Assembly: GCA_023667045.1 (NCBI GenBank)
Contig: JAMPAU010000009.1
Location: 1 to 64,000, forward strand
Length of the DNA: 64,000 nt
Direction of reading: 5' to 3'
Source of the DNA: Ruminococcus flavefaciens
Lineage (GTDB): Bacteria; Bacillota; Clostridia; Oscillospirales; Ruminococcaceae
Position numbers and translations under genes: made by a program. Shown piece by piece: positions 19,878 through 39,251 of the stretch. The notes beneath the pieces are model-generated. The model saw only the letters and a list, made by a program, of their open reading frames with translations. It searched no databases and was not told where the DNA came from. How positions within the stretch are numbered: position 1 is the first letter of the stretch; each line of letters opens with the position of its first letter.

Positions 19878-19882
19878 ATAAA

Positions 19883-19917: not shown

Positions 19918-19923
19918 AATATT

Positions 19924-20472: not shown

Positions 20473-20643
20473 AATTATCACCAACAAAAATTAATAAGTG
20501 TTGATTTTAAAATAATCTGTGGTTAATTTGTGCTTGAAAAACCGACAGAAATATATTATAATCAACACAATGATGGTTTAAAAACTCTATTTATTCTAAC
20601 ATACAGTTTTGAAATTGTCAATAGAAGAAAGGAGAATTTTTTT

Positions 20644-22566
20644 GTGATACGAAGCAAAAAGACGGATTTTATCTGCATAGTGAGTATATTTCTGGCTTTT
20701 GTGATTGCAATTATTGCCTATACATCGGCAAAATCACAGAATGTCGCCGTTATGACCCCTATGGATAAATTACAAAGTAAAATTTCAACGGAGTATGAAA
20801 CAAAACTTTTTGACAGCAGTTACGTCCATGAAATTGATATTATTATCAGTGATGTGAACTGGGATTACATGACAAAAAATGCTGTCGATGAACAGTATGT
20901 AAACTGTGATTTGAAAATTGACGGAGAGATGATTTACAATGTTGCCATACGTCCGAAAGGTAATTCATCTCTCGGAACTATCTCAAATATGGGAAGTACA
21001 CAATTTAGTTTCAAGATTGAATTTGACCAGAATAATCCTGAATAGACTTACCATGGGCTTGACAAGCTGGCACTTAATAATCTCGGACAAGACCCAAGCT
21101 GTATGAAAGATTTCATGATATATCATCTTATGCAGGAAATTGATGCTCCTTCGCCGTGTTCGGCGTATACGTTTGTAAAATTAAACGGAGAGGATTTCGG
21201 GCTTTATCTTGCTGTAGAAGCTGTTGAAGATTCATTCTGTTACAGAAATTACGGCGAAGATTACGGAAATATCTATAAACCCGATAATTTTTCTATGGAA
21301 AGCCTTAATTTAGGCAGAATACTTGATTACAGCACACCGGATTCACCTCTTGCCGTAATTGAACGTATAATGACAGGCGAAAAATATAAGGACTTGCAGG
21401 AGGGCGAAAGAACAGACATTTTATATGATGCTGTATATCCGATATTTTCGGAAATAAAACCGCTGATAAATCTTGCTGCTATGAATTATGCCGGGGATAA
21501 CCCCGAAACTTACCGCACAATTTTTGATACTTCCGTTTTTGATATTACGTCAGGCGACAAGAAAAGCTATATTAATGCTGTCAGAAATTTAAATGAATCA
21601 GATGACCCGCTTTCCGCACTTGATACTGACAAACTGCTGAGATATTTTGCGGTACATCATTTCGTGAATAATTATGACAGTTACGACAGTATGTTTGTAC
21701 ATAATTTTTATGTTCGTGAAAATGACGGAAAACTTTCGCTTATTCCGTGGGATTATAACCTTGCATTCGGAACGTTCAATTATAATAGTGTAGTCGGAAG
21801 TATTATGGGCGAAAATAGTAAATTTGATTTTGTTCCCAATACGGCAGATGCAATGAGTCCGGAAAAAAATATGATAAATTATCCGATTGATACGCCTTGT
21901 TATTCGGTTGATATTTCCGAACGCCCTTTACTTTATCATCTTATGAACAATCCGGAAACGCTTTCGCTTTATCACCAGTATCTTGACGAACTGATTTCAG
22001 AATGTTTTGAAAATGGAAAATATGATGAAATTTATGCACATACATATGAAATTATCAGACCTTATGTTGAAAAGGGACTGACATTCTATACTGTTGAAAA
22101 ATTTGATGCCGGAGCTGAGACAATCCACGATTATATGAATCTCAGAACAAAAAGTATCCGTGGACAGCTTGACGGTAATATTCCGTCAACAACGGACGGA
22201 CAGAAAGAAAATCCACAAAATCTGATTGATACCGGAAATCTTAATCTTGCACGGCTGGTTGATTTTGATTCGATACTTGCGGGAATCAGTCAAGAAAATA
22301 TTATGAATATTCTTGATATAATTCTTGAAAATAACTTTGAATACAATACAAACGGTGCTGTTGAGGCGGTGCATTATTATGCTGAAAATACGGATAAACT
22401 GACTGGAAAAATTCCGGAAATTATAAAAATTCCGTTTGTAAAAAATATGATTGCAGACAAGATTTCCCCGTTTATTGAGTTTATCGTTGCTGTTATTTTG
22501 CTTGTTGTCGCACTGGTTTTTGTAAGAAAATATCACAGGAGGAAAATTTATGCAGTTAAGACATGA
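20644..22566 (+). pseudogene. cotH: CotH-family protein kinase, split by one amber codon
   Basis: The likely start is GTG 20644, preceded by AAAGGAG. A transmembrane helix (FICIVSIFLAFVIAIIAY) is near residues 8-27. The CotH domain carries RPKGNSSLG, then a TAG at 21043-21045, then TYHGLDKLALNNLGQDPSC in the same frame. Homologues have glutamine at this point (QTYHGLDKL), so a C-to-T change is likely. Downstream are IPWDYNLAFG (catalytic-loop-like) and a second membrane helix near the C-terminus. CotH proteins are atypical surface or spore-coat kinases. It overlaps the VTC gene by 17 bases. Without read-through the product would be about 130 residues and inactive. Confidence 0.85.
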
Positions 22567-23220
22567 GTATAAATTTTATCTGAATTATAATGACTATGTG
22601 GCTATACGCACAAGATTACAGGCGGTTATGCAGGCAGATACGCACGTTTTAGGCGGAAAATATAAAATCAGAAGTCTTTATTTTGATAATGCCACTGACA
22701 AGGCACTGAGGGAAAAAGCCGACGGCGTAAGTCAGCGTGAAAAATTCCGCATACGCTGTTATAATTCGGATTATGATTTCATACGGCTTGAAAAAAGCTG
22801 AAAACATGCGGACTTGGTACAAAAATTTCCGCACGTCTTACACGTGAAGAAACGCAGAAAATTATTGATGGCGATATTGAATTTATGCGTGAAAGTCCGC
22901 AGGCGGTTGTTGCAGAACTTTACGGGAAAATGAAATTTCAGGGACTCCGACCGAAAACAATTGTTGATTATACCCGTGAGCTTTTTATTTATTCTGCCGG
23001 AAATGTACGTGTTACGCTTGATTATGATATACGCACAGGTCTTGGAAGTATGGATATGCTCAACCTTGATGTACCTACTGTTGCAACCAATCCGGGACTT
23101 GTTATTCTGGAAGTAAAATATGATGATTTTCTGCCGGACGTAATCAGAGATATTGTGCAGATGAAATCAAGGGAAGTTTCAGCATTTTCAAAATATATGA
23201 GTTGCAGAAAATTTTATTGA
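22550..23220 (+). pseudogene. VTC-domain (polyphosphate polymerase-like) protein, frameshifted
   Basis: Two frames together make one VTC-domain protein of about 223 residues. The first (22550-22801) has MQLRHEYKFYLN and KYKIRSLYFDN; the second continues with KTCGLGTKISARLTREE, FMRESPQAVVAEL and VILEVKYDDFLPD. The break is at an A6 run (22791-22796); one more A restores the frame. The VTC fold binds nucleotide and polyphosphate in a tunnel. The CotH/VTC/DUF4956 order is a recurrent Firmicutes cluster. The ribosome site AGGAGG is good. The event is either a homopolymer sequence error or a real frameshift. Confidence 0.85.
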
Positions 23221-23239
23221 AAGAGAGGATTTTTAATTT

Positions 23240-23914
23240 ATGAGTTTCAGCGATATTTTTACATCAGATATGCTTACCAGAGTGACGGCACTTTCTGTCA
23301 CCGATATGCTGATAGGCATAGTTCTTTCGTTTCTTATCGGAATGTTTATTTTCTTTGTATACAAGAAAACTTTCAACGGCGTGCTTTATTCGGCAAATTT
23401 CGGACTTTCACTTATTGGTATGTGCATGATTGCAACTGTGCTTATAATGGCAGTTTCAAGTAATGTTGTTCTTTCACTTGGTATGGTAGGTGCGTTGTCT
23501 ATCGTGCGTTTCCGTACGGCGATAAAAGAGCCTATGGATATACTGTTTCTTTTCTGGGCAATTTCAACGGGCATTATTCTTGCTACCGGAATGATTCTGC
23601 TTGCAGTTTTCGGAAGTATTGCAATCGGTGCGGTTTTGCTTATCTTTGCAAACAAAAACGGAAAAGACCAGCCGTATCTCCTTATTGTAAATATGAAAGA
23701 TTCGGAAACAGAAAAAGATGTTATGAAAATTGTTTCTGAAAATACAGAAAAAAATATTATAAAAAGCAAAACTTTTTCAAAAAACGGAAATGCCGAACTT
23801 ACTATAGAAGTACAGCTCCGTGAAAATGAAAGCAGTTTTGTAAAGTCTATCAGTAATTTTGAAGACATTGAAAATGTCGTAATGGTAAGCTATAACGGCG
23901 ACTATATGAGTTGA
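23240..23914 (+). CDS. DUF4956 membrane protein
   Basis: The 224-residue protein has about four transmembrane helices in its first 140 residues (MLIGIVLSFLIGMFIFFVY, then LSLIGMCMIATVLIMAV) and the conserved SLGMVGALSIVRFRTAIKEP segment between helices. A soluble alpha/beta tail follows (YLLIVNMKDSE onward). It is the only intact gene of the CotH/VTC/DUF4956 operon. The family is thought to work with the VTC protein, perhaps in polyphosphate or cell-envelope functions; the exact role is not known. Confidence 0.85.
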   Translation: MSFSDIFTSDMLTRVTALSVTDMLIGIVLSFLIGMFIFFVYKKTFNGVLYSANFGLSLIGMCMIATVLIMAVSSNVVLSLGMVGALSIVRFRTAIKEPMDILFLFWAISTGIILATGMILLAVFGSIAIGAVLLIFANKNGKDQPYLLIVNMKDSETEKDVMKIVSENTEKNIIKSKTFSKNGNAELTIEVQLRENESSFVKSISNFEDIENVVMVSYNGDYMS

Positions 23915-23941
23915 TTTATCTCTTGTTAAATAAATAGTAAA

Positions 23942-23985
23942 AATCTCCTGAATATCGTAAAATAATGGTGTTTAGGAGATTATTT
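23942..23985 (+). terminator. Terminator of the CotH/VTC/DUF4956 operon
   Basis: AATCTCCTGAA/TTTAGGAGATT with a T-rich tail ATTTTTAT. Confidence 0.65.
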
Positions 23986-24021
23986 TTATAGTGAAATTTG
24001 AAAGAAAAAACAATCGAAAGT

Positions 24022-24093
24022 GATAAAAAAATCACTGAATCTGAATGCGTGGCAGAGCTTATGAAACTCTATCAGAACTTAACAAATAAATAA
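24022..24093 (+). pseudogene. Second copy of the methylase C-terminal tail
   Basis: The frame reads DKKITESECVAELMKLYQNL and then a TAA. It repeats the last 23 codons of the remnant at 19479-19877, with a handful of base differences. Nothing upstream is in frame. The two tails flank the TetR/CotH block. Confidence 0.75.
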
Positions 24094-24101
24094 AAATTAT
24101 T

Positions 24102-24149
24102 GCTGTCAGAATTGATGCGAAAATCATCAAATCCGACAGCTATTTTTTT
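24102..24149 (+). terminator. Terminator after the duplicated methylase tail
   Basis: GCTGTC/GACAGC and inner TTGATG/CATCAA form a two-part stem followed by TATTTTTTT. Confidence 0.65.
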
Positions 24150-24191
24150 CATTTTTACGTCCAATATTTATTGCAAATTTTGAGTGAATTG

Positions 24192-24209
24192 TGTCAAGTA
24201 TTATTGACA
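24192..24209. repeat. Solo IS-end-like motif
   Basis: TGTCAAGTATTATTGACA, an 18-base imperfect palindrome, recurs in nearly the same form just after both IS3-family remnants (35540-35557 and 50130-50147). This copy stands alone and may be the trace of a third insertion. Confidence 0.45.
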
Positions 24210-24303
24210 AAATCATTCCCAATATTTGACAAACAGAAATTCATTTGATATAATTAATAAATAAAAAGAGATGATAATATTTATGGAAATACAAGAATAT
24301 TCA

Positions 24304-24420
24304 TAACTATTCAGTATCTTCAACTTAACTTCTACACTAATATTTTATTAATTAACATTTATTTTTCTGTTTTTATTCATGTTTAGGAAGTAAATAAAAA
24401 ATATGGCTACTGAATAGTTA
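24304..24420. mobile_element. MITE-like element with 13-bp terminal inverted repeats
   Basis: TAACTATTCAGTA (24304-24316) and TACTGAATAGTTA (24408-24420) are perfect inverted copies that bound 117 AT-rich bases without a reading frame. This is the size and shape of a non-autonomous IS derivative. The rest of the 24094-24550 gap shows nothing else. Confidence 0.5.
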
Positions 24421-24550
24421 CAAATACACATAATATTAATAGCATAATAAATAATATAAATCTAAATAAACTAAAAAAATTCTTATTTGAATATTAAACT
24501 ATTTTAGTTCTGATTTAAAATATATTGTTTACTATAAAGAAGGGATTGTT

Positions 24551-26636: not shown

Positions 26637-26666
26637 TTGACAAAATATAGCTTTTAGTGTTACAAT
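26637..26666 (+). promoter_or_regulatory. Promoter of the GTPase/radical-SAM operon
   Basis: TTGACA (26637-26642) and TACAAT (26661-26666) are 18 bases apart, about 50 bases before the first start codon and in the gap shared with the XRE gene. Confidence 0.7.
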
Positions 26667-26714
26667 AATGTATGGATAACTTTAATTATTATAAAATCAT
26701 GAAAGGATAATTAT

Positions 26715-28316
26715 ATGCAGGATATTAAATATGATATTGAGCAATTGACATCAAGATTTATTGATTGGTTTAAATCACAGGATAATGCTGAAAAAGATTA
26801 CTTAACCAAAATAGATAAAGAAGTGCTTTCGCTTCTTTGTGCCGAAAAACCAAAAGTTATGGTATATGGTATTTACAATGCAGGAAAAAGTACTCTTATC
26901 AATGCTATTATCGGCAAAGAAGTTGCTGAGATGAGAGACCGCCCCACTACTTATAAAATCGATGAGTATGACAATGGTGATTATACATTGGTCGACAGTC
27001 CGGGTGTTGATGCTCCAATCGAACATCAGCAAATCACAGAAGATAATATTGAGAGCTGTCATGTCATTCTCTATGTTATAAGTACAAAAGGCGGATTTGA
27101 AAGTATCAAAAACTATGAAAATATGTACAGGCTTATTAAAACCGAAAAACCTTTTATTATCGTTATCAATGATAAAAACGGCGAAAATGATATAAATAAC
27201 AGTGAGAATATCAACAGCATTAAGTGCAAGATTCTTGAAAATCTTCAGAAAATCAGTGGTAATTATCATATCGAAAATTTATTCGATACTATTGCAGTCA
27301 ACGGCAAACGTGCTTTGCAAGGTCAGTTGCAAGGTAAAGAAAAACTTGTTGAATTAAGTAACCTGTCTATGATTAAAAACAGAATACTTCATTTTTTGCA
27401 TTCACAGTCAGCTATGAGTATTTATAAAGCTCCTGTAAATAACCTTATTTCTATGCTTGATGAAATGATTGCTGATACAGAAGAAAAAACTAATCTCGGC
27501 AGTAATAAGATTTTCACTTCTTATTTGTCTGATATTAGGGCACAACGTAATTCCTTTATGGACGAGATACCGTGCCGAATCAATATGATGGTAAGACGAT
27601 ATGAAAGGACATTGATTGAATCTGCTTACAGTAAAAATATCAGTAGCTGGGAAAGCAACATACAGTCAATGTATAGGGAATTTGAAGATATGTATACTGA
27701 ACATATCAGAAATCTTATGTCATATTTTAAAGAAAAATATATAGGTGTTGATTTTTCAGGAATGACAGCAAAAAATATTTCCGGAAATATTTCCGGTTAC
27801 AGTATGGTAGATTTTGAGGGAAATCAAGAAAAACATACAAACAGTAATTCCGATTCTTCAGAAAATGATAATTATTCTTCCGGAATGGATATGCTCAGTA
27901 CTGCTGTTGATGCAGCAAGAAGTATAATGTCTCCCAATCCTGTTCCGAATCCCAAACTCATTCTGAAGGTCTTTTCAAAGATTTTCACTTCCAAAAAAGA
28001 AAAGGAACTTGCAGAGTTAAGCCGGCTTCTGAAAGAATCAACCGAAAGAAACCTCATAGCAGCAGAAAATGCCATCAATGAGGCAAGACGCAGGCAGGAT
28101 ATAAGAATTGCCGTTGAAACACAAAGTCATAAAATCCGTATTGAAATGTGTACACTTATGACTGCACAACTTTCTGCCGTATTTGAAAAAGCAGAAGAGT
28201 GTATTCTTGTTTCTGCAAATCAGAATCAGCATGAAATGGATAAACTGCTTGATGTATGCAAACAGCTTAATGCTTTTAAAACAGAAGCTGTAACAATAAA
28301 AAACAGGATAAGGTGA
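26715..28316 (+). CDS. Dynamin-like GTPase, first of three
   Basis: The protein has 533 residues. Its GTPase domain shows G1 GIYNAGKST near residue 50, G3 DSPG near 94 and a G4-like NDKNG near 153. The rest is long and helical. A glycine- and proline-containing, more hydrophobic stretch at about 390-425 (MLSTAVDAARSIMSPNPVPN) could be a membrane-contacting paddle. Bacterial dynamin-like proteins bind GTP, assemble on membranes and reshape or fuse them, usually in pairs or sets. It opens a six-gene operon; four bases separate it from the next GTPase gene. The ribosome site is GAAAGGA. Confidence 0.8.
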   Translation: MQDIKYDIEQLTSRFIDWFKSQDNAEKDYLTKIDKEVLSLLCAEKPKVMVYGIYNAGKSTLINAIIGKEVAEMRDRPTTYKIDEYDNGDYTLVDSPGVDAPIEHQQITEDNIESCHVILYVISTKGGFESIKNYENMYRLIKTEKPFIIVINDKNGENDINNSENINSIKCKILENLQKISGNYHIENLFDTIAVNGKRALQGQLQGKEKLVELSNLSMIKNRILHFLHSQSAMSIYKAPVNNLISMLDEMIADTEEKTNLGSNKIFTSYLSDIRAQRNSFMDEIPCRINMMVRRYERTLIESAYSKNISSWESNIQSMYREFEDMYTEHIRNLMSYFKEKYIGVDFSGMTAKNISGNISGYSMVDFEGNQEKHTNSNSDSSENDNYSSGMDMLSTAVDAARSIMSPNPVPNPKLILKVFSKIFTSKKEKELAELSRLLKESTERNLIAAENAINEARRRQDIRIAVETQSHKIRIEMCTLMTAQLSAVFEKAEECILVSANQNQHEMDKLLDVCKQLNAFKTEAVTIKNRIR

Positions 28317-28320
28317 TAAT

Positions 28321-29229
28321 ATGATACAAATTCCAGAACGTTTATTAAATACTATGGAAAAACATCTTTCTCAGGAACTTTCATACAAATGGAGCAGTAT
28401 ATGTTCACGTATAAGTTCTGAAAGAAAAGTCAAGGTTGCCAATACAGGTCTTGTAAGCTCCGGAAAAAGCAGTCTTTTCAATGTACTTATTGATTCAGCA
28501 GATAAAACACCACGTTTTGCGACAGGTGCGGCAAGAGTCACAAAAAGTCAAGATATTGAAAGGTTTACAGATACTATTGATATTGTCGATACTCCCGGTA
28601 TTGACGTAAATGAAGAAGATACGCAGGTGGCACTTAATTCTATTCTTGAATCTGATATTATTATCATGATTCATAATATAAAACTTGGTATGCTTAATGA
28701 TGCAGAATATCAGTGGCTTAAATCGGTTGCTGAAAGAATGAACAGTGAGCAGGAAAAAAAGGCAAGACTTATGTTTGTATGTAGCTGGATTGATGAACGG
28801 CAGGGTAACAGCGACTATCAGTCTACCATTGACGAAACACGCCGTATGGTTATAGAAGCAGTCGGCTGTGATATTGATTTTTATGAAATCTCTGTCAAAC
28901 GTTATCTTGCGGGAGTGGAAAAAGGCAAGGACAAGATGATTAAAATGAGCAACATTCCTAAAATAAAGGAAGCTATAATAAAAAAAGCAGATGCTTATTC
29001 TGCTGTGGCAGATAGTCTTATTGCAGAACAGTTGTTTTCTCTTTACAAAGAGAGTAAGGCAGAGCTTATGATTGAAGATAAATCTCTTAAGGCAGAAAAG
29101 GAAAACATTATTGACAGAATAAAGAAAAAGTATGAATCTTTAAGAAATGAGTGGAACTCTGTATATGAGATGTTTAAAAATCAGTACAGTATTGTTAAAA
29201 GCAAAAAGAGGGAATACGATAGTATATAA
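28321..29229 (+). CDS. Dynamin-like/YfjP-type GTPase, second of three
   Basis: At 302 residues it is the shortest of the three GTPases. G1 is GLVSSGKSS near residue 43, G3 DTPG near 90, and a G4-like SWIDE segment near 160. The C-terminal 65 residues are a predicted coiled coil (SLKAEKENIIDRIKKKYESL). The short helical part suggests a partner that needs the longer GTPases on either side. It starts four bases after the first gene; a ribosome site GGTGAT overlaps that stop. The next gene follows after 12 bases with AGGAGG. Confidence 0.8.
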   Translation: MIQIPERLLNTMEKHLSQELSYKWSSICSRISSERKVKVANTGLVSSGKSSLFNVLIDSADKTPRFATGAARVTKSQDIERFTDTIDIVDTPGIDVNEEDTQVALNSILESDIIIMIHNIKLGMLNDAEYQWLKSVAERMNSEQEKKARLMFVCSWIDERQGNSDYQSTIDETRRMVIEAVGCDIDFYEISVKRYLAGVEKGKDKMIKMSNIPKIKEAIIKKADAYSAVADSLIAEQLFSLYKESKAELMIEDKSLKAEKENIIDRIKKKYESLRNEWNSVYEMFKNQYSIVKSKKREYDSI

Positions 29230-29241
29230 GGAGGAAATAAT

Positions 29242-29706
29242 ATGCCAGTTTGGTTAGCTATTGGCGGTGTTGTAGTGGGTGCTATTATCGGGAGTGACAG
29301 CAGTCACAGCGATTACAGTGACCACAGTGATTATAGTGATTACAGTAACCACAGCGATTACAGTGATGCAGCAGAGCGTCGTCAGAGAAGACTTAATGCA
29401 GCAAGAAATGAATATGAATCTGCAAAGCAAACATTGATTGATATAAAAAACAATCAGCTACAAAAATATCTTTCGGGAACTTCAATGGGTAATATATCTG
29501 ATTCCTTTGTTGAAAATGTTTCTGTAAATTCAGTACAGACAGCCGGACTTAAAAAGATTTATAATGATTGTGACAATGAAATAAAATCTGAAACAGCTTC
29601 AGTTGAAAAGCAGATTGAAGATATTGATTATGCTCTCAATCGTCTGGAGAATATCCGTAGTCAGCTGAAAGAAGAATATGGTCTTGATGAGGATAATTCA
29701 ATTTAA
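29242..29706 (+). CDS. Small membrane-anchored protein with Ser/Asp/Tyr/His repeats
   Basis: The 154-residue protein begins with a hydrophobic glycine-rich segment (WLAIGGVVVGAIIG, residues 4-17). Residues 18-42 are a tandem run built from SDYSDHSDYSDYSN-type units. The remaining 110 residues are coiled-coil-like. I know of no family. The unusual repeat sits between GTPase genes and upstream of two radical SAM genes in one operon, so it may be a membrane tether for the GTPases, a metal-binding tail, or the target of radical SAM modification. This is inference; there is no double-glycine leader or cysteine-rich core. Confidence 0.6.
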   Translation: MPVWLAIGGVVVGAIIGSDSSHSDYSDHSDYSDYSNHSDYSDAAERRQRRLNAARNEYESAKQTLIDIKNNQLQKYLSGTSMGNISDSFVENVSVNSVQTAGLKKIYNDCDNEIKSETASVEKQIEDIDYALNRLENIRSQLKEEYGLDEDNSI

Positions 29707-29717
29707 GGAGGAAAAAT

Positions 29718-31487
29718 ATGTCATTCAGAACAGACAGCATCAATCGTTTTGTTAGTGCAATGCTTGATTCGGAAGAAAAGTTTTCTAAGGGAATAAAAGT
29801 ATATGAGGACAAGCAGTCACAGATAGAACAGATTTTTCAAGATATGGAAAAGCAGATAAACAATCTTGTAGCAAATTCTGCTGATAGTAAGGATAATCCT
29901 AATATTGCCTCTCTTAAAAAGAATATTACTTCTATTCTGAACGAGTGCATTAAAACAGGTACTGCAAAAATACTTGAGTCCGGAAAAGGAATATCTTTTA
30001 TCAAAGGACATGAAAAAACATTTGTTGTTTCAGTATTTGGAAAAGTAAAGTCAGGTAAAAGCTCACTTGGTAATTTTATCATGGGCAGTGAAATTAAAAA
30101 GCTTGGTATTTCTTCTGATTATGATAAGATAAAGCCAGTTGTTACTGTTGAGGACAGGGGCAAAATAACAACAAGCAACAAACTTGAAACACTTTCAGAA
30201 GAGAACAGCGAATTTGGGGTAGGTTCAACTGAAACTACAAGTACGATTCAGTATTTTACAATCGGCGGTCTTTCATGGTTTGATACTCCCGGTATAGGAA
30301 GCATAACAAAGGAAAATGAAGAACTTGCAAAAGAATATATTCAAAATTCAGACCTTGTTATTTTTACGTGCAGTTCGGACGCAGCAGGAACACAGCAGGA
30401 ATTTCTTGAAATGAAAAGATTTGCTGAAATGAAAAAGCCTGTTCTTCTTCTCGTCACTATGTCTGATACATATGATGAAGACTGTGATGACGACGGAAAT
30501 ATTATTAAAATCCTAACGGCAAAAAGCGACAGGGACAGACATGATGTTGAAAATTATCTGCTCGAAAGTATACGTGAACAGAATCTTGATGATATTCTTC
30601 AGTACAGCAGTATTATGACAATATCAAAACAGCTTGCCGTTGAAGCATTTAAAAATGAAGACGATGAACAGTACAGACAGAGTAATATTGATATGTTTCT
30701 TGATAAATTAATTGACATAACACAGAACGATGCCGCACAGATGAAGCTTGAAACTCCTATGAATCGTATAAGTACTATGATTAATGATGTTATAGGCAGT
30801 GAAAACACAGAATCTCTTACAGGACTTAAAAAGACCCTTAATGAAAATATATGTGACTTTGAAAAGCAGATGAAGGAACTTGATACAAAAAAAGAAAGTA
30901 TCCGTACTATGATAAGGTCCAATTCAATACGTAAAATTCAGGATTTAATCGAGCGCTATCGTATTGAAATAGGAAACGGAAGTACCAGTATCAGCTCTGA
31001 AAGAATTTCCAGTGATATTGTAAAGATTATTTCCGAATCCTCCAGACTTATATGTGAAAGAGAACTGTCTGAGTTTATGACAAGCAATTCCACACGTATT
31101 TTTGATAATATGCAGGAAAACGGTTTCAGTATTCCGGAAATGAAAATGCAGACGGAAAGCATTGCCTATCAGCAGGAATATGTGGAAAGACGCATACGTC
31201 AGCCAAAGGGGCTTTTTGAACATATCGGTGCTTTTTTGGGAAAGAAATATTATTCCAATCAGACCACAACATTAACAAAATACAATACTTTCAATACTGG
31301 TATTAATGAATCTGATGTATGGAATTCCATAATTTCACAAATTAATATATATTTTCAGGATAATGTTGAAGTGCAGATTAAGGAACTTATTGATATGTAT
31401 TTCAGACCGGTATTGAATCTCAATGAAGAAGCAGTAAAGCTTATTGATACGGCTATTTCCCGACTTTCAGCAATGCAGGAACAGTAA
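29718..31487 (+). CDS. Dynamin-like GTPase, third of three
   Basis: The 589-residue protein has a helical lead (residues 10-100), then G1 GKVKSGKSS near 108, a threonine-rich switch region (GSTETTSTIQYF), G3 DTPG near 190 and a G4-like TMSDTYDED near 247. A long helical stalk follows, with coiled coil near 370-400. The order helix-GTPase-stalk is that of bacterial dynamin-like proteins. Its ATG follows AGGAGG; the stop is two bases from the radical SAM start, so co-expression is certain. It is probably the main membrane-active partner of the set. Confidence 0.8.
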   Translation: MSFRTDSINRFVSAMLDSEEKFSKGIKVYEDKQSQIEQIFQDMEKQINNLVANSADSKDNPNIASLKKNITSILNECIKTGTAKILESGKGISFIKGHEKTFVVSVFGKVKSGKSSLGNFIMGSEIKKLGISSDYDKIKPVVTVEDRGKITTSNKLETLSEENSEFGVGSTETTSTIQYFTIGGLSWFDTPGIGSITKENEELAKEYIQNSDLVIFTCSSDAAGTQQEFLEMKRFAEMKKPVLLLVTMSDTYDEDCDDDGNIIKILTAKSDRDRHDVENYLLESIREQNLDDILQYSSIMTISKQLAVEAFKNEDDEQYRQSNIDMFLDKLIDITQNDAAQMKLETPMNRISTMINDVIGSENTESLTGLKKTLNENICDFEKQMKELDTKKESIRTMIRSNSIRKIQDLIERYRIEIGNGSTSISSERISSDIVKIISESSRLICERELSEFMTSNSTRIFDNMQENGFSIPEMKMQTESIAYQQEYVERRIRQPKGLFEHIGAFLGKKYYSNQTTTLTKYNTFNTGINESDVWNSIISQINIYFQDNVEVQIKELIDMYFRPVLNLNEEAVKLIDTAISRLSAMQEQ

Positions 31488-31489
31488 TT

Positions 31490-32584
31490 ATGAATTATAT
31501 TCTTAAAGTAACAGATGGCTGTAATATGCGTTGCAAATACTGCTGTGTTGGTGATAAATCGGATTTCAATATAATTTCAGAAGAACAGCTTTATAAAAAT
31601 CTTTGTTTCTGTGCAGAAAATTCGATAGCAAGGAACGAAAAAAAAGCAAATATTATTTTTCATGGTGGAGAACCGACAATAGTTCCGTGTGAATTTTATG
31701 AAGAATCTATTAAAAAGATAGAGGAAAAATATACTGATATTACTTTTTGCTGGCGTATGCAGACTAACGGTTTGCATATAAATGATAAGTTTATTAACCT
31801 TTTTTCAAAATATGGTTTTAGTATGGGTGTGAGTATTGACGGTTCTGCACAGATTCATAATCAGACCAGAATTGATATAAACGGAAATCCTACCTATGAT
31901 ATTGTTTATAACAATATACTGCAACTGAAATCAAAGAATATAAATGTTTCGGCTCTCATGGTAGTTGGAGCTAATGTGACAGAAGATTTTTCTTTTCTTG
32001 ACGAATTTGCAGAACATCATATTCCAATAAAAATCAACCCGCTGATTGAGTGCGGTGAAGCAGAAAATAACAGTGAAATTCTTCTTAAGTCGGGTCAGTA
32101 TGCAGAATATCTGATAAAGGTATCTGAATATGTAGTGTCACATGAACTTGATGTTCCAATTCAGCCGATTGACAGCTTGTCGGAAAAAATTTTCAGTAAT
32201 TCTCAATATGGTGAATGTACTTTTTCTGAAAACTGTTTCTGTAATTTTTTGGCACTTGATTATAAAGGTCAGATTTATCCGTGTGGAAGATTCTGTGATA
32301 ACAACGCTTTCAGCAGTGGAAATATCAACATTAATTCTGTTTCAATGCCATTTGAAAATCAAGTATACAAGCCCGAAATTCGTTCTGAATGTTTAGTGTG
32401 TAAATTTCAGAAACTTTGTAATGGTGGTTGTCCTTTTATGGTATGGATTAATAAAAATCACAAAAATCCATTATGTCATGATTATAAAAAAGTTTTTAAA
32501 TATCTTATGACTGACGGACTGATTTTTATTGAGAATAAACTGAAAGAAAAGCGAGAGGAATTGTACAATGGAAATTACAGATGA
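31490..32584 (+). CDS. SPASM-domain radical SAM enzyme
   Basis: The 364-residue protein starts with the radical SAM cluster motif CNMRCKYC (cysteines 11, 15 and 18). The FHGGEPT segment near 58 and later TNG and GVSIDG segments are typical of the anaerobic sulfatase-maturase/peptide-modifying branch. The C-terminus has a SPASM arrangement: CNFLALDYKGQIYPCGRF near 250 and CLVCKFQKLCNGGCPF near 303, enough cysteines for auxiliary iron-sulfur clusters. Such enzymes modify peptides or proteins. It starts two bases after the third GTPase gene and overlaps the next radical SAM gene by 17 bases. The substrate is unknown; the repeat protein at 29242 is a candidate. Confidence 0.9.
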   Translation: MNYILKVTDGCNMRCKYCCVGDKSDFNIISEEQLYKNLCFCAENSIARNEKKANIIFHGGEPTIVPCEFYEESIKKIEEKYTDITFCWRMQTNGLHINDKFINLFSKYGFSMGVSIDGSAQIHNQTRIDINGNPTYDIVYNNILQLKSKNINVSALMVVGANVTEDFSFLDEFAEHHIPIKINPLIECGEAENNSEILLKSGQYAEYLIKVSEYVVSHELDVPIQPIDSLSEKIFSNSQYGECTFSENCFCNFLALDYKGQIYPCGRFCDNNAFSSGNININSVSMPFENQVYKPEIRSECLVCKFQKLCNGGCPFMVWINKNHKNPLCHDYKKVFKYLMTDGLIFIENKLKEKREELYNGNYR

Positions 32585-34289
32585 TACTAAGTATGAAATT
32601 CTTCTTCTGAATATTGAACGCATTCCTACGCATATGTTTGATAATCTGGGACAACATTCCATTGCGGCTTATCTTGAAACAAAAGGCTTTAAAGCAATGA
32701 TTTACTCCGGAGTTGCCGGTGAATGTAAAAAAGTAATTTCTGATGCAATTGAAAAAGACTTAGTGCCTGTTTTAGGTTTTTATACTGCTACAGATAATCT
32801 TTCAGTTGTGAAACATATAATTAAATGGATTAAACAGACTTATGATGTATATACAGTTGCAGGAGGACCAGAAGCTGTTGCTCTGAAAGAAGATTTTTTA
32901 CGTGAAACAAACTGTGACTTTGTTATAGAGGGAGAGGGGGAGATTCCAGAATATCAGTTATTAAGCAGTATTATTGATAATGTATTTCCACTGGAGCAGG
33001 TACAAAGTCTTCGGTATATTGATAAAAATAATATTTACCATGAAAATTCTCTTGCAAAGCCTTTCTGTAATCTTGATGAGATACCATTTCCAAGTAGAAA
33101 AAGGTGTATAGGCGGAAATTTTAGGAATGATAATTCTTTTGGAATTTTAACCGGAAGAGGTTGTCCTTTTCAGTGTGCTTTCTGCTATGAGGGGGCGAAT
33201 ACTAAAAAAGTACGTCTTCGCTCCATAGAAAATGTAATTTCTGAAATTGATTTTGCTATTTCTGAAAACCGTAAATTAAAGTATTTGAATGTTTATGACG
33301 ATACATTTACTTTGGATTTCAAACGTGTGGAAAAATTCTGTAAGGAAGTAAAAAAAAGAAATTTATTCTGGTATTGTGAGGGACATACTTCAAATATTGT
33401 AAAACATCCGGAAATGATAAAGGTTATGGTAGATTCTGGAATGATTGGTCTGCAAATTGGCATTGAAAGTGGAAGCAACGCTGTACTTAAAGCATATAAC
33501 AAAAAAACAAATACAGATATGCTTTTAGAAGTCGTGAATATCTGTAAAAATGCAGGATTAACAAGACTTGTTGGAAATTTTATTGTTGGTGGTGCATATG
33601 AAACTGAAGAATCTATATCAGAGAGTATGAATCTTGCAGAAAAAATGATTGAAGCAGGTACAGGAATGTTTGAATGTAAAACGGTATTTCTTGCACCCTA
33701 TCCACATACACCAATTACTTTAAATCCACATAATTATGACCTTGAATATTCTGGAATTGATGAAAACACCTGTATATATTCTATGCAGATGCCATTAATG
33801 AAACCAAAATCAATAGAATATAAAAAACTGATTTCTTTTAAGAAAATATTCGATGAATTGATTCATGAAAAAATAAGAGTATTATCTCAAAAGGCACTTA
33901 AGGAAGATGTTGAACGTAATTTTTTTAAATCAGGTGAAAAATTAAATTCAACTTCTATATGGAAAAATTATTATATTAAACAAGAACATATTGTAAATTA
34001 TCTTGAAGGGATTTTTTCAATGAAAGGGCAAAGAAATGATAATTATACAGATGAAGAACTACTTGAATTGTATCCAGTCAGAACGTTTAATCTGTTGGAA
34101 TACAATGACGGTTGTTTAACTTATGGTAATTATACTTTCAATGATTGTGAAAGTTTCTTACTTAAATATTCTGCCGGAAAAATAAAATTTAAAGATATAA
34201 TTATTATGTCCAAAAATAAGAAAAAAGAATTATTGGATTCATATCATTCTTTAAACAATAGGTGTCTTATATATGTCTCAGAGTTTTAG
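32568..34289 (+). CDS. B12-binding-domain radical SAM enzyme
   Basis: The 573-residue protein has an N-terminal cobalamin-binding-like domain (about residues 10-140: GFYTATDNLSVV, VAGGPEAV, CDFVIEGEGE). The radical SAM core follows, with GRGCPFQCAFCYEG near 198 giving the CxxxCxxC cluster. Later segments (VYDDTFTL, GLQIGIESGSN) match the Elp3-like core of this class. The C-terminal 170 residues are not recognised. These enzymes often carry out methylations or rearrangements. It is the last gene of the operon and overlaps the previous one by 17 bases. The usual DxHxxG cobalamin motif is not evident, so B12 use is uncertain. Confidence 0.8.
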   Translation: MEITDDTKYEILLLNIERIPTHMFDNLGQHSIAAYLETKGFKAMIYSGVAGECKKVISDAIEKDLVPVLGFYTATDNLSVVKHIIKWIKQTYDVYTVAGGPEAVALKEDFLRETNCDFVIEGEGEIPEYQLLSSIIDNVFPLEQVQSLRYIDKNNIYHENSLAKPFCNLDEIPFPSRKRCIGGNFRNDNSFGILTGRGCPFQCAFCYEGANTKKVRLRSIENVISEIDFAISENRKLKYLNVYDDTFTLDFKRVEKFCKEVKKRNLFWYCEGHTSNIVKHPEMIKVMVDSGMIGLQIGIESGSNAVLKAYNKKTNTDMLLEVVNICKNAGLTRLVGNFIVGGAYETEESISESMNLAEKMIEAGTGMFECKTVFLAPYPHTPITLNPHNYDLEYSGIDENTCIYSMQMPLMKPKSIEYKKLISFKKIFDELIHEKIRVLSQKALKEDVERNFFKSGEKLNSTSIWKNYYIKQEHIVNYLEGIFSMKGQRNDNYTDEELLELYPVRTFNLLEYNDGCLTYGNYTFNDCESFLLKYSAGKIKFKDIIIMSKNKKKELLDSYHSLNNRCLIYVSEF

Positions 34290-34422
34290 TGTTGCAGTTA
34301 TAAAAATTGGAAATTCCAATGTTAGACAGAATCAGTTAGCTGACGTTTTTATTTAATATATTTAAAACGAAAGGTTATGAGAGATAAGTACAATCCAACA
34401 TCAAGTAAAAATGAAACATTTT

Positions 34423-34460
34423 CCCGAATATGCATACTGCGTATTCGGGGGATTTTTTAT
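34423..34460 (+). terminator. Terminator after the GTPase/radical-SAM operon
   Basis: CCCGAATA/TATTCGGG stem closing a short loop, followed by ATTTTTTATTTTTT. Confidence 0.8.
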
Positions 34461-34550: not shown

Positions 34551-35560
34551 ATGGGAACAGGAAGACAATACGATGAAAAGTTCAAGGTAGAGACAATGAA
34601 GCTTGCAAAGGAGATAGGAACGAAACAGGAAGTAAACGAACTGGGAATACCAAAAGGGAACTCTTGAAGGCTAGGTGAAGAAAGCGATTGAAAGAACTGA
34701 ATGAATTTCTGGAGGAAGCGTCGGCTTTTTTCACAGCGAGCCGTCAGAAGTATGCAAAAAAGAAAGAATGAAATTCATAGCCTTGAAGGCTGAAAATAGC
34801 GAAATAACAGGGAAAATTGCCTTCTGCTGCAAAGCATTGGAAGTATCAAGGCAGGGATTTTACAAATATCTGAAAAACAAGGATAAACCTTGGAAATATG
34901 CAGAACTAGCCGCAATGATGACAAAAATACGTGAAGAAGACGAATATAACGATACATACGAAAGAGTGCAGATGCGTGAGACACTGTTGCTGAAAAGAGA
35001 ATGGGAAGGACTTGAAATTCCGAAAGAACGTAAAATCTACAGAATAATGCAAAAAAATCGGGCTTTCTCATCGTCCGAAAAAGCCGAAAGGACTGACAAA
35101 AGCTGATAAAAAAGCACAGAAATCAGACGATTTCAAAAGCTCTAAAACTTCAGCCGGAACTCACAGGAGCGATAATTCATTCCGACCGTGGAAATCAGTA
35201 CACAAGTGACGAATACAGGCGTAAAGTAGCCAAATACGGTCTGAAGCAAAGCATGAACAGTGCTGGCATAAGGTATCACGACAATGCACAGTGCGAAAGT
35301 ATGTGTGCAAGAATGAAAGTTGAATTGTTTTATTCACGAAAAGACAAGCCAGAAAACTATACCATTGCGGAACTAAAAGCAAAAATCTGGCGTTATTATA
35401 TGGGTTACTTTAACAACCGACGTATCTGTTCTGCAAACAATGGTCTCCCTCCGTCTCTTAAACGCAGGTTTTATTATCAATCATTTAAAAAAGCTGCCTA
35501 ATTTTTTCAGTTTCAGCTTACAATAAATTTTCTAAATTGTGTCAAATATTATTGACAATT
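34551..35560 (+). mobile_element. Dead IS3-family element (IS150-like)
   Basis: An OrfA start (MGTGRQYDEKFKVETMKLAKE) runs from 34551 but is frameshifted and has a TAG where the family has tryptophan. OrfB pieces follow: 34768-35106 (helical N-terminal part) and, in a new frame, about 35140-35501 with GAIIHSDRGNQYTS (second catalytic Asp) and CARMKVELF (catalytic Glu). The integrase-core segment with the first Asp is deleted. The right end carries TGTCAAATATTATTGACA (35540-35557), also seen at two other places in the window. It separates the GTPase operon from the STAND/TerY-P island. Confidence 0.8.
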
Positions 35561-35694
35561 TCATAATTTTGCCTAAGATTGTTTTCTCTATTTTTCAAAG
35601 GTTTATCAAAACTATTGAGAAATATTTACTTTTTAGTGATTATATGGTATAATTTGTAAGAATATGTTATAATATATCACAGAGGGTGATTTTT

Positions 35695-38220
35695 ATGAGA
35701 ATAGATTTATGTGAAAATAAGATTACTTTAACAAAAATAAAAAGTATTATTTGTATTGAAAAAGATGACGTTAAATTTTTAAATAAAATATTCAGCCCTT
35801 TAGTAGAAGAAGAAAGACCTTTCTATGAATCATACAGCATAAAAAAGCACAGGGCATATTTTATGAACGGTAATATTATTAAAAATTATAATAAGTCAAG
35901 TGAAAACTATGATACAAAGCAAAGAGATAAAATATGTTATCTAAAGCGTTGGGCAAATATGCTGGTCGTCGGTACTGCTTTTGACGAAATGCTTGATATA
36001 GTGAAAGAAGTAACTGTAAATCTTGCTTTAAACCGCCATCACGAAGTTTTCAGTCTGATTGAACTGGATATCGAAATAATGCCTAATATGTTCATGAATT
36101 TTCTGAATGTATGCCTTGAGGAAAACGAATGTGAAAAGGCTCTTTTAATGCTGATTCTGTGGTCAATTTATGGCGAATGTATCGTATATATTGAGGATAT
36201 TTATGCAGTCAGTAAAAAGTCTGTGCAGAAGTCATTTCAGAAATCTGTACGTCTTATATCACATATCAAACCTTGCAGACCTGTATTCATGGGCAGAGAT
36301 GAGATTATTGACAGTATTCATAATCATTTTATGTCGGGGAATCACTTTGTTTTCCTAAAAGGTATGGGCGGTATAGGCAAGAGTGAGTGTGCAAAGCAGT
36401 ATGCCGAAAAATACAAGTCGGAATATAATACGATTGTTTTTGCAGAATGCATGGACTCACTTGTAAATTTAATCAACGATAACAGTGTATTTACACTTAC
36501 TGTTCCATTTGTTTCAGAACGTATGCCGAATGAAAGCGATGAGGAGTTCTTCTGTCGTAAAATAGCACAGATTAAGGAAATAGCCGATGAAAAAACTCTT
36601 GTAATTATTGACAACCTTGACTTTATTTCCACAGAAATTGAAAGTCTTATTGCAGTGCCGTTTCGTCTGATTATCACGACAAGGTGTGATTATTCCACGA
36701 TTTATCAGCAGGAGACTAAATTTATTGAGGAAATCAATGATAAGATAGTCCTAAGAAGTATTTTTATTGCATATTACGGAAAAAATATCAGTGATTTTGC
36801 TAATGTGGACAGGATTATTGATATGTTCAGCGGTCATACAATGGCGGTTGAACTTGTCGCAAAACAGATGAATTCAGCCTGCATGAGACCAGATGAAATG
36901 CTCGATATTCTGCAAAAAAGTGCGGAAAGTGAACTGGAAGAAAAGTTCATTATGCCAAATCATAGTAAGGAATATCAGACTTTTCCTCAGCATATGCTTA
37001 CTCTTTTCAATATCTCCACACTGAACGACGAGGAAAAATATATCTTGATGTGTCTCGCACTTATGCCATTGTCGGGTATTGATAAACGCTCTTTCAAGCA
37101 AGCCTGTGGACTTAAAAACTTCAATTCAATAAACAGACTTATCGACCGCTCGTGGATTTCTGAAAATGATGACAAAATTTATCTGCATACTCTCATAAAG
37201 GAGACTGTTTTTATTTCGTGCAGACCCGATTTGATTAAATGCTATGATTTTATAAATGGGCTGATGTGTGAATATCCTACTATTAAGTGCTGGCATTCTA
37301 CGATATATCAGAAAAGTTATATTAAATCAATAGTTGAAAATATTTACAATATGTTTCCTGTTGAATATGTAACATCAGAGTTATATGATTTCTATGAATG
37401 GGCAGAGCTGATGTTTAATCATTTTAATAACAATAATCTTTCTCTTAACATTTCTCATAAGCTTTTAAAGATATATAGAGAAACTTTCGGGGAAAATCAT
37501 TTCCGTACTGCCAAAAGATTAGCAAGAATAGCCTGTGTTGAAAAAGACCTTGATAATATTGATAAAGCTGAAGAACTTTTTTACAAAAGCAGAAAAATAA
37601 TTTTAGGATTAAATAATAAGTCTGTTTATGAAACATTTTATTTATCACATATTAATCTGGTATTGAGTGGTATGATTATAGAAACAAGAGATTTATCAAA
37701 TGATAAAGATTTACTTGATGAAATTAAAACACTTTCAGAAGAGGCAATCAGTATAATCAAAAATTTGCCTGTTAACAGCGGAATCGAACCTTTATCATTA
37801 AATTGTGCTTCACTTTACCGCAATCTTGCATGGGTTGAGATTTACAATAATAATTATGACAAAGTCTATTTTTACCTTGATAAAATTGTTGAAGAGTGTG
37901 AAAGACTTAACTGTGAGCGTGATTATTTTTTAAAAGAATATCTCGAAGCAATTATTTGTAATAAAAACAATGATTTATATAATGCTGTTGTTCACATGAA
38001 TAAAGTTGTAAGCAATGTAGAAGAATTTTATGGAAAGCAAAGTATACATACGATTCATATGAAGATTAAACTCGGAGACATATATTTTAAATCCGGTGAT
38101 ACTGCTTCGGCTTATGAACAGTATAGGACTGCACTTGGGTATCTTGAAAAAATGCCGTACAGAAATGAGAAGCTCCGTACTGAAATTTTGCAGAAAATAC
38201 ATTCTGTCGAAAATATATAA
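35695..38220 (+). CDS. STAND NTPase (NB-ARC-like) with TPR-like C-terminus
   Basis: The protein has 841 residues from the ATG at 35695, seven bases after GAGGGTGAT; the GTG at 35686 is inside that site. Residues 1-190 are an unrecognised domain resembling the N-terminus of the 7760-8788 protein (FMNGNIIKN, LILWSIYGE). An NB-ARC-type NTPase follows: GRDEIIDSIHNHF near 198, P-loop GMGGIGKSECAK near 222, Walker B TLVIIDNLDF near 303 and RLIITTRCD near 325. A winged-helix region and about 300 residues of TPR-like helices complete it. STAND proteins act as switch-like sensors that oligomerise on a trigger; many are antiphage. It precedes the TerY-P genes but has its own terminator. Confidence 0.8.
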   Translation: MRIDLCENKITLTKIKSIICIEKDDVKFLNKIFSPLVEEERPFYESYSIKKHRAYFMNGNIIKNYNKSSENYDTKQRDKICYLKRWANMLVVGTAFDEMLDIVKEVTVNLALNRHHEVFSLIELDIEIMPNMFMNFLNVCLEENECEKALLMLILWSIYGECIVYIEDIYAVSKKSVQKSFQKSVRLISHIKPCRPVFMGRDEIIDSIHNHFMSGNHFVFLKGMGGIGKSECAKQYAEKYKSEYNTIVFAECMDSLVNLINDNSVFTLTVPFVSERMPNESDEEFFCRKIAQIKEIADEKTLVIIDNLDFISTEIESLIAVPFRLIITTRCDYSTIYQQETKFIEEINDKIVLRSIFIAYYGKNISDFANVDRIIDMFSGHTMAVELVAKQMNSACMRPDEMLDILQKSAESELEEKFIMPNHSKEYQTFPQHMLTLFNISTLNDEEKYILMCLALMPLSGIDKRSFKQACGLKNFNSINRLIDRSWISENDDKIYLHTLIKETVFISCRPDLIKCYDFINGLMCEYPTIKCWHSTIYQKSYIKSIVENIYNMFPVEYVTSELYDFYEWAELMFNHFNNNNLSLNISHKLLKIYRETFGENHFRTAKRLARIACVEKDLDNIDKAEELFYKSRKIILGLNNKSVYETFYLSHINLVLSGMIIETRDLSNDKDLLDEIKTLSEEAISIIKNLPVNSGIEPLSLNCASLYRNLAWVEIYNNNYDKVYFYLDKIVEECERLNCERDYFLKEYLEAIICNKNNDLYNAVVHMNKVVSNVEEFYGKQSIHTIHMKIKLGDIYFKSGDTASAYEQYRTALGYLEKMPYRNEKLRTEILQKIHSVENI

Positions 38221-38224
38221 TTTT

Positions 38225-38257
38225 AAACCGTCTGTTAATAAAACAGGCGGTTTTTAT
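38225..38257 (+). terminator. Terminator of the STAND gene
   Basis: AAACCGTCTGTT/AACAGGCGGTTT (one G-T pair) with loop TAAA-type bases and a T-run. Confidence 0.8.
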
Positions 38258-38437
38258 TAATTCTCTCTTTTTATTCTCTAATTTCTCCATGTTATAGAAA
38301 AGCATTGATTTTTATAGTAGCATATGGTATTATAATGTAAAATTAGTGTTAAAGATGTACAATTTATATGAATTTTGTATTTATATATATTGTTTCGTCT
38401 GAACATTAATAAGTAAAATAACAAGGAGGATTTAATT

Positions 38438-39235
38438 ATGCCGACTAATGAAGTGGCAAGAAATTATCAGCAGCCTGAAATGCCAAGAAATGCAGGAGCA
38501 GTGCATCAGCCAGTTGTAATCTGTATTGATACAAGCGGTTCTATGAAAGACCTTGCTGAAGACGGAAGAAAAAAGTATGAGATTGTTGAGGAAATGATTA
38601 ACGGTCTCGCAAACATTGATTTGAGCGATTATGATAAGGAAAACACAGAAATTTGTATTCTTGTTTTTGATGATGATGTTCGCACCCTTGTTGACTGGCG
38701 TTCTCTTGCTTCCTTTGAGGGCGGAATCAAACTTGATGTCGCAGGCTGTACTTCTCTTGGTACTGCTGTTATGACTGCTATTGATAAAACAAGGGAAAGA
38801 AGAAAGGTTTATTATACACAAGGTATTGACAGCAAGAGGGCTCAGATTTTTGTATATACTGACGGTGTAAGCACTGAATCTTTAGATACAGCTTATGCAA
38901 GAGCACAGGAATATTTAAATCGTTCAAAACCTTCTGCTAAGATGTATGTTACTCTTATTCCACCGGCTGTTGACCCGAATGAACTTTTAGGGTTTGGTGA
39001 AGCTGTTACAATTCTTAAGGCAGTCGATTGTGTAAACGGACTTCCTGCCGCTTTTAAGTTTATGCAGGCAAGTGTTGTTGCTGCATCTCAGTCTGTTATT
39101 GGAAGTACAACAGAGACTTCTGTCCCAGATGGAATTAAGCCGTTAAACAGAGGCGGTCTCGACGGAACTACCAAGAATGCAGACGGACAAAAGGTTGTTG
39201 TCAATAAGGTTGATACTGTTGACTGGGATTGGTAA
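38438..39235 (+). CDS. TerY-like von Willebrand factor A protein
   Basis: The 265-residue vWA protein has an intact metal site: VVICIDTSGSMKD (DxSxS) near residue 28, GCTSLGTAV near 107 (threonine), and VYTDGVS near 143 (aspartate). This is the TerY type of small cytoplasmic vWA protein from tellurite-resistance-like systems. It starts after AAGGAGG, 200 bases after the STAND terminator, and leads an operon with PP2C phosphatase and kinase genes 16 bases and then 0 bases apart. That trio is the published TerY-P triad, in which the vWA protein probably serves as a phosphorylated partner or adaptor. Confidence 0.85.
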   Translation: MPTNEVARNYQQPEMPRNAGAVHQPVVICIDTSGSMKDLAEDGRKKYEIVEEMINGLANIDLSDYDKENTEICILVFDDDVRTLVDWRSLASFEGGIKLDVAGCTSLGTAVMTAIDKTRERRKVYYTQGIDSKRAQIFVYTDGVSTESLDTAYARAQEYLNRSKPSAKMYVTLIPPAVDPNELLGFGEAVTILKAVDCVNGLPAAFKFMQASVVAASQSVIGSTTETSVPDGIKPLNRGGLDGTTKNADGQKVVVNKVDTVDWDW

Positions 39236-39251
39236 TTAAGGAGACTGTAAT

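Follow-up and report, generated by a model that had tools for sequence, protein, structure and literature searches.

The 64,000-nucleotide stretch of Ruminococcus flavefaciens DNA analyzed here (contig JAMPAU010000009.1 of assembly GCA_023667045.1, positions 1 to 64,000 of the forward strand; hereafter the window) carries an operon of six genes, which encode three GTPases (G1, G2 and G3), a small repeat protein (R), a SPASM radical S-adenosylmethionine (SAM) enzyme and a B12-binding radical SAM enzyme; both radical enzymes are oxygen-sensitive. The order of the genes is conserved in other genomes, an aromatic-X-Asp/Asn motif is nearly restricted to R, and the presence of this motif is associated with that of the radical enzymes. 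On balance, the operon can be read as a membrane-tethered dynamin-like machine, the R linker of which is radically modified, and which probably works in anti-phage defence.

Related loci (L numbers) were monitored by a genome-wide scan with a four-row G3 alignment; two short conserved patterns were required, and the number of loci is therefore a lower bound. At least 66 loci were detected, 65 of which are distinct, L018 and L028 being identical over 19.7 kb. The two 19,716-base stretches reside on two contigs of one Fretibacterium metagenome-assembled genome (MAG), a result of either assembly redundancy or recent duplication. The SPASM gene was found in 15 of the 65 distinct loci (L012-L026), which feature the gene order of the window, and the B12 radical SAM gene is present wherever the contig is long enough. 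L022 and L024 begin within G3, L023 stops within the SPASM gene, and an extra G2-like gene lies between R and G3 in L018; the R of L015 was identified by position, not by BLAST. G3 proteins of these loci are 34-86% identical to that of the window. Their hosts are Clostridia, Synergistota and Riflebacteria (Ruminococcus, Lachnospiraceae, Clostridium, Eubacterium, Blautia, Fretibacterium, Synergistaceae, Riflebacteria, and one rumen bacterium), all of which we take to be anaerobes. An earlier note on this DNA, made from the letters alone, had proposed the six genes as an operon, and had raised the case that the junction at 31487-31490 is unique to this strain. The operon holds as a conserved unit, and G3 is directly followed by the SPASM gene in all 15 other radical-SAM loci. 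Seven genes compared between the window and L012, its closest relative, have dN/dS values of 0.08-0.30, and the DNA similarity of the two stops at 34289, where the B12 gene ends. The six-gene operon is real, and more than a local coincidence; a chance array or a recent fusion was rejected on the conserved order and the dN/dS values. The gene set is rare: searches with G3 at 1e-20 in 197 sampled genomes of the family, and with G1 at 1e-15 in 391 sampled genomes of the class, matched the genome of the window only.

R is made up of hydrophobic residues 3-17, as judged by hydropathy, triplets at residues 22-42, and a basic, coiled-coil-like part. The aromatic-X-Asp repeats of this 154-aa protein had been overlooked in the earlier note. 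Codons used in the array vary for Tyr (TAT/TAC), Asp (GAT/GAC) and Ser (AGT/AGC), so that the array is no product of fresh nucleotide slippage. In residues 15-64 of R, the motif [HYFW]x[DN] occurs 3 to 8 times (median 6) in the rows from radical-SAM loci (15 rows, 14 distinct, L028 being an exact copy of L018 and counted once; L019 and L021 are near-copies, and L022 and L024 gave no row). The median is 0 in 40 other rows, none of which has more than two motifs except L073 (6 motifs), a locus counted in this group, the contig of which ends within G3; the genome of L073 holds a distant SPASM enzyme only (163 bits vs. 509-550 for full-length enzymes of the system). The 40 rows come from 38 of the 50 loci without radical SAM genes, no row being obtained from L029, L031, L036, L044, L045, L054, L055, L057, L063, L068, L069 and L075, and from the plasmid loci L002 and L007. 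The group includes L077, the R of which is cut by the contig start, and R proteins trimmed to a likely start in L030, L049, L051, L065 and L002. Searches for R in the genomes of L022 and L024 (contigs starting in G3) and of L075 gave no match.

When linkers were shuffled (2000 times each), the observed number of motifs was never reached in 10 of the 15 radical-SAM rows, and was reached 19 times in L016, 6 in L025, 5 each in L020 and L026, and once in L023. Among the 4211 open reading frames (ORFs) of at least 60 aa in all loci, 13 have at least five motifs per 30 aa, and 12 of these are R, those of L073 and of the duplicate L028 included (11 without L028); the thirteenth is an antisense ORF of L074. 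The R proteins of L016, L025 and L026 stay under five motifs per 30 aa. In the alignment of the relatives of the window (clade A), the Tyr and the Ser of the last triplet, which precedes AAER, are nearly invariant, the middle residue of the triplets varies (S, G, D, N, A), and the portion after the repeats is conserved as well. The aromatic-X-Asp repeats make R the most likely substrate of the radical enzymes, and we hold this assignment as quite probable. The claim of the earlier note that radical chemistry acts on one protein of the module is probably right.

The SPASM enzyme scores 60.2 bits with Pfam Radical_SAM, and its CxxxCxxC motif and eight further cysteines are invariant in a 14-row alignment. 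Among the best 25 of 59 NCBIfam matches it falls under the cut-off of every family. It matches the dynobactin maturase (also named DynA) with 168.7 bits, far under the cut-off. Among 394 sampled genomes of the order, a search at 1e-60, which scored the first few candidates of each genome, detected SPASM enzymes of this type in the window only. The B12 enzyme has B12-binding (41.3 bits) and Radical_SAM (86.7 bits) domains, both over the cut-off; the two enzymes are of the types named in the earlier note. The best NCBIfam matches of the B12 enzyme, HpnJ (1e-31), PhpK (2e-27) and ApyD (1.5e-26; 93 bits, cut-off 750), are all far under cut-off, and one further, weak match (8e-5) was found in its own genome. 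According to PMC11002830, enzymes forming three-residue cyclophanes link residue i (Trp, Phe, Tyr, His) to the C-beta of residue i+2; YxdB forms a C3(Tyr)-Cbeta(Asp) bond, and HaaB and YhhB use His. HpnJ is a lipid enzyme, PhpK stands for phosphorus methylation, and ApyD methylates the C-beta of Tyr (PMC10635010). From this known chemistry we infer that cyclophanes may form on R, methylation being a presumed second step. Provided that R is the substrate, a cyclophane is the rather probable bond.

In the proposed mechanism, the dynamin-like G1 and G3 and the small GTPase G2 would act as one complex on the cytoplasmic membrane, to which R presumably docks them through its short hydrophobic N-terminal stretch, the juxtamembrane linker and the coiled coil. 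In the anaerobic branch, the SPASM enzyme would join the ring of Tyr or His to the beta carbon of the Asp or Asn two residues on, so that the HSD, YSD and YSN triplets become consecutive three-residue cyclophanes; the B12 enzyme probably methylates the same repeats. The modified linker would be a stiff, protease-resistant spacer, and may determine whether the GTPases assemble on the membrane, and in what manner. Phage or plasmid attack is the likely trigger, and membrane sealing, lysis delay or self-killing may be the outcome.

It is very improbable that the SPASM enzyme is of the sulfatase-maturase type, generating formylglycine by oxidation of Ser (or Cys), be it in R or elsewhere. The anaerobic sulfatase maturase is the top NCBIfam match (169.6 bits), its structures 4k36/4k37 are the best solved relatives (1e-23), and Ser is found within the repeats. 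The score is however half of the cut-off (349.45), and true maturases, scoring 354-417 bits, are held by 12 of 61 genomes of the family. In a reference tree, from which L013 (two ORFs), L021 and L023 (partial) were left out, a branch (98/91) separates the 13 SPASM enzymes of the system from 13 maturases and three cyclophane enzymes. The [CS]xPxR motif is missing in the module proteins of the window, and was found among clade A modules in one of 13 G1 proteins only. On score, tree and motif, identity with a sulfatase maturase was rejected. L013, a MAG locus, has its SPASM gene as two ORFs (5413-6540), owing to either decay or an assembly error.

RiPP (ribosomally synthesized and post-translationally modified peptide) clusters typically feature SPASM and B12 radical enzymes adjoining a small repeat protein, and the operon has this look. 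R could accordingly be a toxin-like peptide matured by both radical enzymes, and the GTPases provide immunity or export. This is improbable: by Pfam, no protease, exporter or leader-binding domain is found in the six proteins, a protein of the same layout occupies the same position in loci without radical SAM genes, and R is conserved between relatives beyond its repeats.

The tree of G3 (67 rows; fragments L069, L073 and L075 left out) unites L027 and the 16 radical-SAM loci (17 rows when the duplicate is counted) in one group (100/100). Next to it, on a long branch, is the Brevibacillus locus L029, which has no radical genes. L027 is sister to L023 (100/99). Neither a SPASM nor a B12 match was found in the 19.7 kb of L027, and no SPASM gene at 1e-30 in its genome, the B12 enzyme having been sought at the locus only. 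If the root lies outside the group, two changes, a gain and a loss, the latter in L027, would be needed to explain the tree.

An unlikely alternative is that the repeats of R are an unmodified linker, which binds metal or forms condensates, that the target of the radical enzymes is a different partner, such as a GTPase, a lipid or a small molecule, and that both features are merely traits of the anaerobic branch. Motif and enzymes do sit on one deep branch; the best family of the B12 enzyme is the hopanoid-lipid HpnJ, and a lipid substrate would fit a membrane system; His/Tyr/Asp arrays could bind metal. The alternative is opposed by L027, the only locus with readable flanks inside the clade that lacks the radical SAM genes, the R of which also lacks the aromatic-X-[DN] motif. 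It is opposed, too, by the three-residue period with a varying middle residue, as in known cyclophane substrates (PMC11002830).

Modification of R as the preferred reading has to be set against several results. The co-variation of motif and enzymes is mostly one deep split of the tree, so that the single loss in L027 is the independent evidence. The R of L027 also lacks the hydrophobic N-terminus, and a 216-aa ORF only, with the GTPase part gone, is left at the position of G1; the whole locus may therefore be decaying. BLAST between the two branches finds no counterpart of R, while G1, G2 and G3 each pair best with their own counterpart, and comparison of R profiles aligns 30 coiled-coil columns only; homology of R between the branches is but faintly suggested. 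The closest solved structures to the SPASM enzyme are the maturases mentioned above, and its scores with cyclophane families are low (YhhB 111 of 445, GrrM 98 of 310); none of the curated cut-offs of YhhB, GrrM/OscB, FxsB and XyeB is reached by the window enzyme. The reference tree does not place the SPASM enzymes of the system with cyclophane formers. Two references with long branches, peaB and a HEXXH-linked enzyme, fall on their side, and the tree does not settle their nearest kin.

SPASM genes are missing in 50 of the 65 distinct loci, mostly in Proteobacteria, and 42 of the 50 have at least 2.5 kb readable after G3 (the G3 fragment L075 included). The GTPases had been tied to radical SAM genes in the earlier note; homologous modules are more often found without them. 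Modules of this kind differ in the R linker and, except for L027, in the clade of G3, lying outside the radical-SAM group of the tree (fragments L073 and L075 left out). Their commonest order is G2-G3-G1, an R-like ORF of similar layout being inserted between G2 and G3. Klebsiella plasmids carry a small GTPase, a 163 aa protein, a dynamin and a GTPase in a row, with no radical SAM gene; the same four genes are found in Photobacterium toruni near cas1, cas2, csm6 and RAMP genes, and the two large ones of the four are present in Acetobacter. An ORF of about 90 aa encoding a CxxCxxCC mini-protein abuts a module gene in 24 of the 50 loci without, and in none of the 15 with, radical SAM genes, and often overlaps the stop of G1. 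The gene in L032 (12223-12492) matches PF03692 (33 bits). In the radical-SAM locus L020 a CxxCxxCC gene is located about 1.5 kb downstream, in a separate gene group. The mini-protein may substitute for the radical enzymes, or have an unrelated function. A wider proposal, which we regard as tentative, is that radical chemistry builds, and does not just regulate, a membrane-remodelling GTPase machine: a cyclophane ladder would be made from the Tyr/His-X-Asp run in the juxtamembrane linker of a dynamin partner, the other, mostly Proteobacterial branch using an aromatic-poor linker and, instead of radical enzymes, an iron/zinc mini-protein in about half of the loci.

A P-loop and a D-[ST]-P-G motif are present in each of the three GTPases. 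All three had been called dynamin-like in the earlier note, and this is correct for G1 (Dynamin_N 54.6 bits, cut-off 27; MMR_HSR1 58.5) and G3 (Dynamin_N 37.5). G2 stays below the cut-off (Dynamin_N 19.6), the sole family passed being MMR_HSR1 (39.6 bits), and is a small GTPase. PADLOC matches to LeoA (G1 1.7e-26, G2 2.2e-15, G3 7e-20) and LeoBC (G1 2e-21, G3 1e-22) probably reflect the shared superfamily. Against the structures of the PDB, the four-row G3 profile finds the bacterial dynamin-like protein BDLP (2j68) at 5e-6; a 17-row G3 profile finds generic GTPases and chance coiled coils only, and not BDLP, and the G1 profile mostly ribosomal-type GTPases, with BDLP at 0.006. G3 is single-copy in its own genome. 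That the system touches membranes, as the earlier note had it, is probable.

Table 1. Components of the operon and flanking signals in the window
Feature	Position	Strand	Characteristics
G1, dynamin-like GTPase, 533 aa	26715..28316	+	GIYNAGKST, DSPG; Pfam MMR_HSR1 and Dynamin_N; PADLOC LeoA; counterparts in loci without radical SAM genes
G2, small GTPase, 302 aa	28321..29229	+	GLVSSGKSS, DTPG; MMR_HSR1 over, Dynamin_N under cut-off
R, anchor/linker/coiled-coil-like protein, 154 aa	29242..29706	+	hydropathy, clade A alignment; predicted substrate of radical enzymes
R array, 7 aromatic-X-Asp/Asn triplets (R residues 22-42)	29305..29367	+	HSD YSD HSD YSD YSN HSD YSD
G3, dynamin-like GTPase, 589 aa	29718..31487	+	GKVKSGKSS, DTPG; Dynamin_N over cut-off
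SPASM radical SAM enzyme, 364 aa	31490..32584	+	Pfam Radical_SAM; CxxxCxxC and eight further invariant cysteines
B12-binding radical SAM enzyme, 573 aa	32568..34289	+	B12-binding and Radical_SAM domains over cut-off
XRE-type regulator, divergent, 111 aa	26221..26556	-	HTH_3 42.5 bits
Promoter-like site, TTGACA-18-TACAAT, TG before second hexamer	26637..26666	+	
Terminator-like hairpin, 15 pairs	34420..34452	+	

The six ORFs, from G1 through the B12 gene, are spaced by 4, 12, 11, 2 and -17 bases, all on the + strand. ORF coordinates, together with site and hairpin searches, bear out the spacings, promoter, terminator and divergent XRE gene of the earlier description. Promoter-like sites in the region are 57 vs. 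44.8 expected, so the site listed in Table 1 is supported by position and quality alone; the site counts were dropped as evidence, being too weak. The XRE gene is matched at 1e-4 in L012 only, and a different HTH gene is found in L019-L021. Pieces of an IS3-family transposase lie at 34768-35501, shortly past the terminator. A segment of about 10.5 kb (13972-24535), which includes an integrase, is not matched at the syntenic position of L012; there, about 0.5 kb separates the dockerin gene from the module block that follows it.

The flanks of clade A loci (90 ORFs, 102 minus the 12 of L027) yielded, with PADLOC at 1e-10, matches to PDC-M09A (5), BnzB (4), WYL regulators (4), mad3 (4) and one helicase of the reverse transcriptase-associated NERD type; single checks confirmed PDC-M09A and BnzB at L013 and the helicase at L016. 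At 13 mostly Proteobacterial loci, scanned at 1e-20 and hence not comparable with the clade A flanks, 95 flank ORFs gave matches to 125 families, and 136 control ORFs, taken from other places in the same 13 genomes, to 21. On these crude counts the neighbourhood is rich in defence genes. Neighbours of L058, L060, L061 and L067 (16335-20397), and of L031, L033 and L071, resemble by eye what we take to be BrxA/B/C and CRISPR ring nucleases. In L013 (8245-10512) a PDC-M09A protein and a homologue of BnzB (Bunzi) directly follow the B12 enzyme, and these gene clusters recur in L014, L015 and L017; in L016 (13575-14456) a gene for a patatin-like phospholipase starts 8 bases past the B12 enzyme.

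Upstream of the operon, the window has a phage-type integrase and the remnant of a type IIG restriction enzyme, a 132-aa ORF (19479-19877) made up by adjacent pieces of the N- and C-terminal domains of MmeI. Downstream (35686-41927), three genes in a row encode a TPR protein, which matches STAND weakly, a VWA protein and a PP2C phosphatase; neither the VWA nor the PP2C protein nor the ORF after them has a PADLOC match at 1e-5, and the TPR protein reaches 0.03 only.

A defence role is weakened by the fact that the counts above are of families, not genes, and are inflated by redundant models of specificity subunits. Among the control ORFs, too, were BREX, AbiE and type I genes, together with three mad3 matches. 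No viral contig was confirmed in searches with a single G3 sequence and with G3 and B12 profiles, and no match was found among phage records searched with G3. The evidence favours a defence setting, short of proof, and the possibility raised in the earlier note has gained from the flank matches over the control. Bacillus DynA delays phage lysis (PMC8844932), and the module may well serve anti-phage defence.

It is somewhat unlikely, though compatible with modification of R, that the module maintains the membrane under stress or releases vesicles, a role that has been proposed for LeoABC. The GTPases match no PADLOC profiles other than LeoA and LeoBC, loss of leoA, leoB or leoAB about halves the vesicle cargo (PMC4159319), and related GTPase-dynamin pairs are found in catechol operons. 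The patchy distribution (among the sampled family and class genomes, that of the window only), the occurrence on plasmids and the defence neighbours point the other way. The pairs (L009 5328-8197, L011 5286-8155, L008 5310-8158) are located within catechol/muconate gene sets in Acinetobacter plasmids, and beside benzoate genes in Diaphorobacter; judging by this context, they may link dynamins to the breakdown of aromatic compounds.

With PADLOC 2.0.0, R has no match and the other five proteins have distant superfamily matches only, and a description of the gene set was not found in the open-access literature, a corpus without subscription papers and most preprints. The operon is genuine and conserved, a variation on the tandem-dynamin theme of bacteria for which the literature searched has no description, and it suggests a candidate defence system. 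In bacteria, dynamins are often encoded as sets, without known partners or triggers; here a likely membrane partner and a testable chemical switch are at hand. If the proposal is true, a structural protein within a membrane machine would be the target of SPASM/B12 radical chemistry, which a mass shift would reveal, and triceptide chemistry would serve a resident cellular machine rather than a natural product.

The operon shares with LeoABC, of which Eleos is presumably the defence name, tandem dynamin-like GTPases in one operon and one part with a membrane anchor. LeoC and LeoB are, however, one dynamin split inside the GTPase domain, with the anchor at the C-terminus of LeoC (PMC4159319), whereas G1, G2 and G3 each have a P-loop and DxPG, and no GTPase domain is split; in the window a protein of its own, which has a repeat linker, provides the anchor, and the genes of two radical SAM enzymes come after. 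On the split domain, membership in LeoABC was rejected. We know of no partner genes of this kind for DynA of Bacillus subtilis, which differs in being a single protein. It is similar in being dynamin-like, in its membrane role, in its Gram-positive host and in slowing phage release (PMC8844932). As in triceptide maturation (XncB, OscB, YxdB, YhhB), where YxdB ties Tyr to Asp (PMC11002830), a SPASM gene is next to a protein with aromatic-X-Asp/Asn motifs, namely R in 14 distinct radical-SAM rows, the window included. Substrates of triceptide enzymes are precursor peptides of natural products; here the substrate is predicted to be a structural GTPase partner, and family cut-offs are not reached. 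ApyD is a B12 radical SAM enzyme as well, and differs in its RiPP context and in the low score reported above. The anaerobic sulfatase maturase provides the closest solved structures and the top profile for the SPASM enzyme, which differs in scoring below the cut-off, in standing apart from maturases in the tree, and in the missing sulfatase motif in the module of the window.

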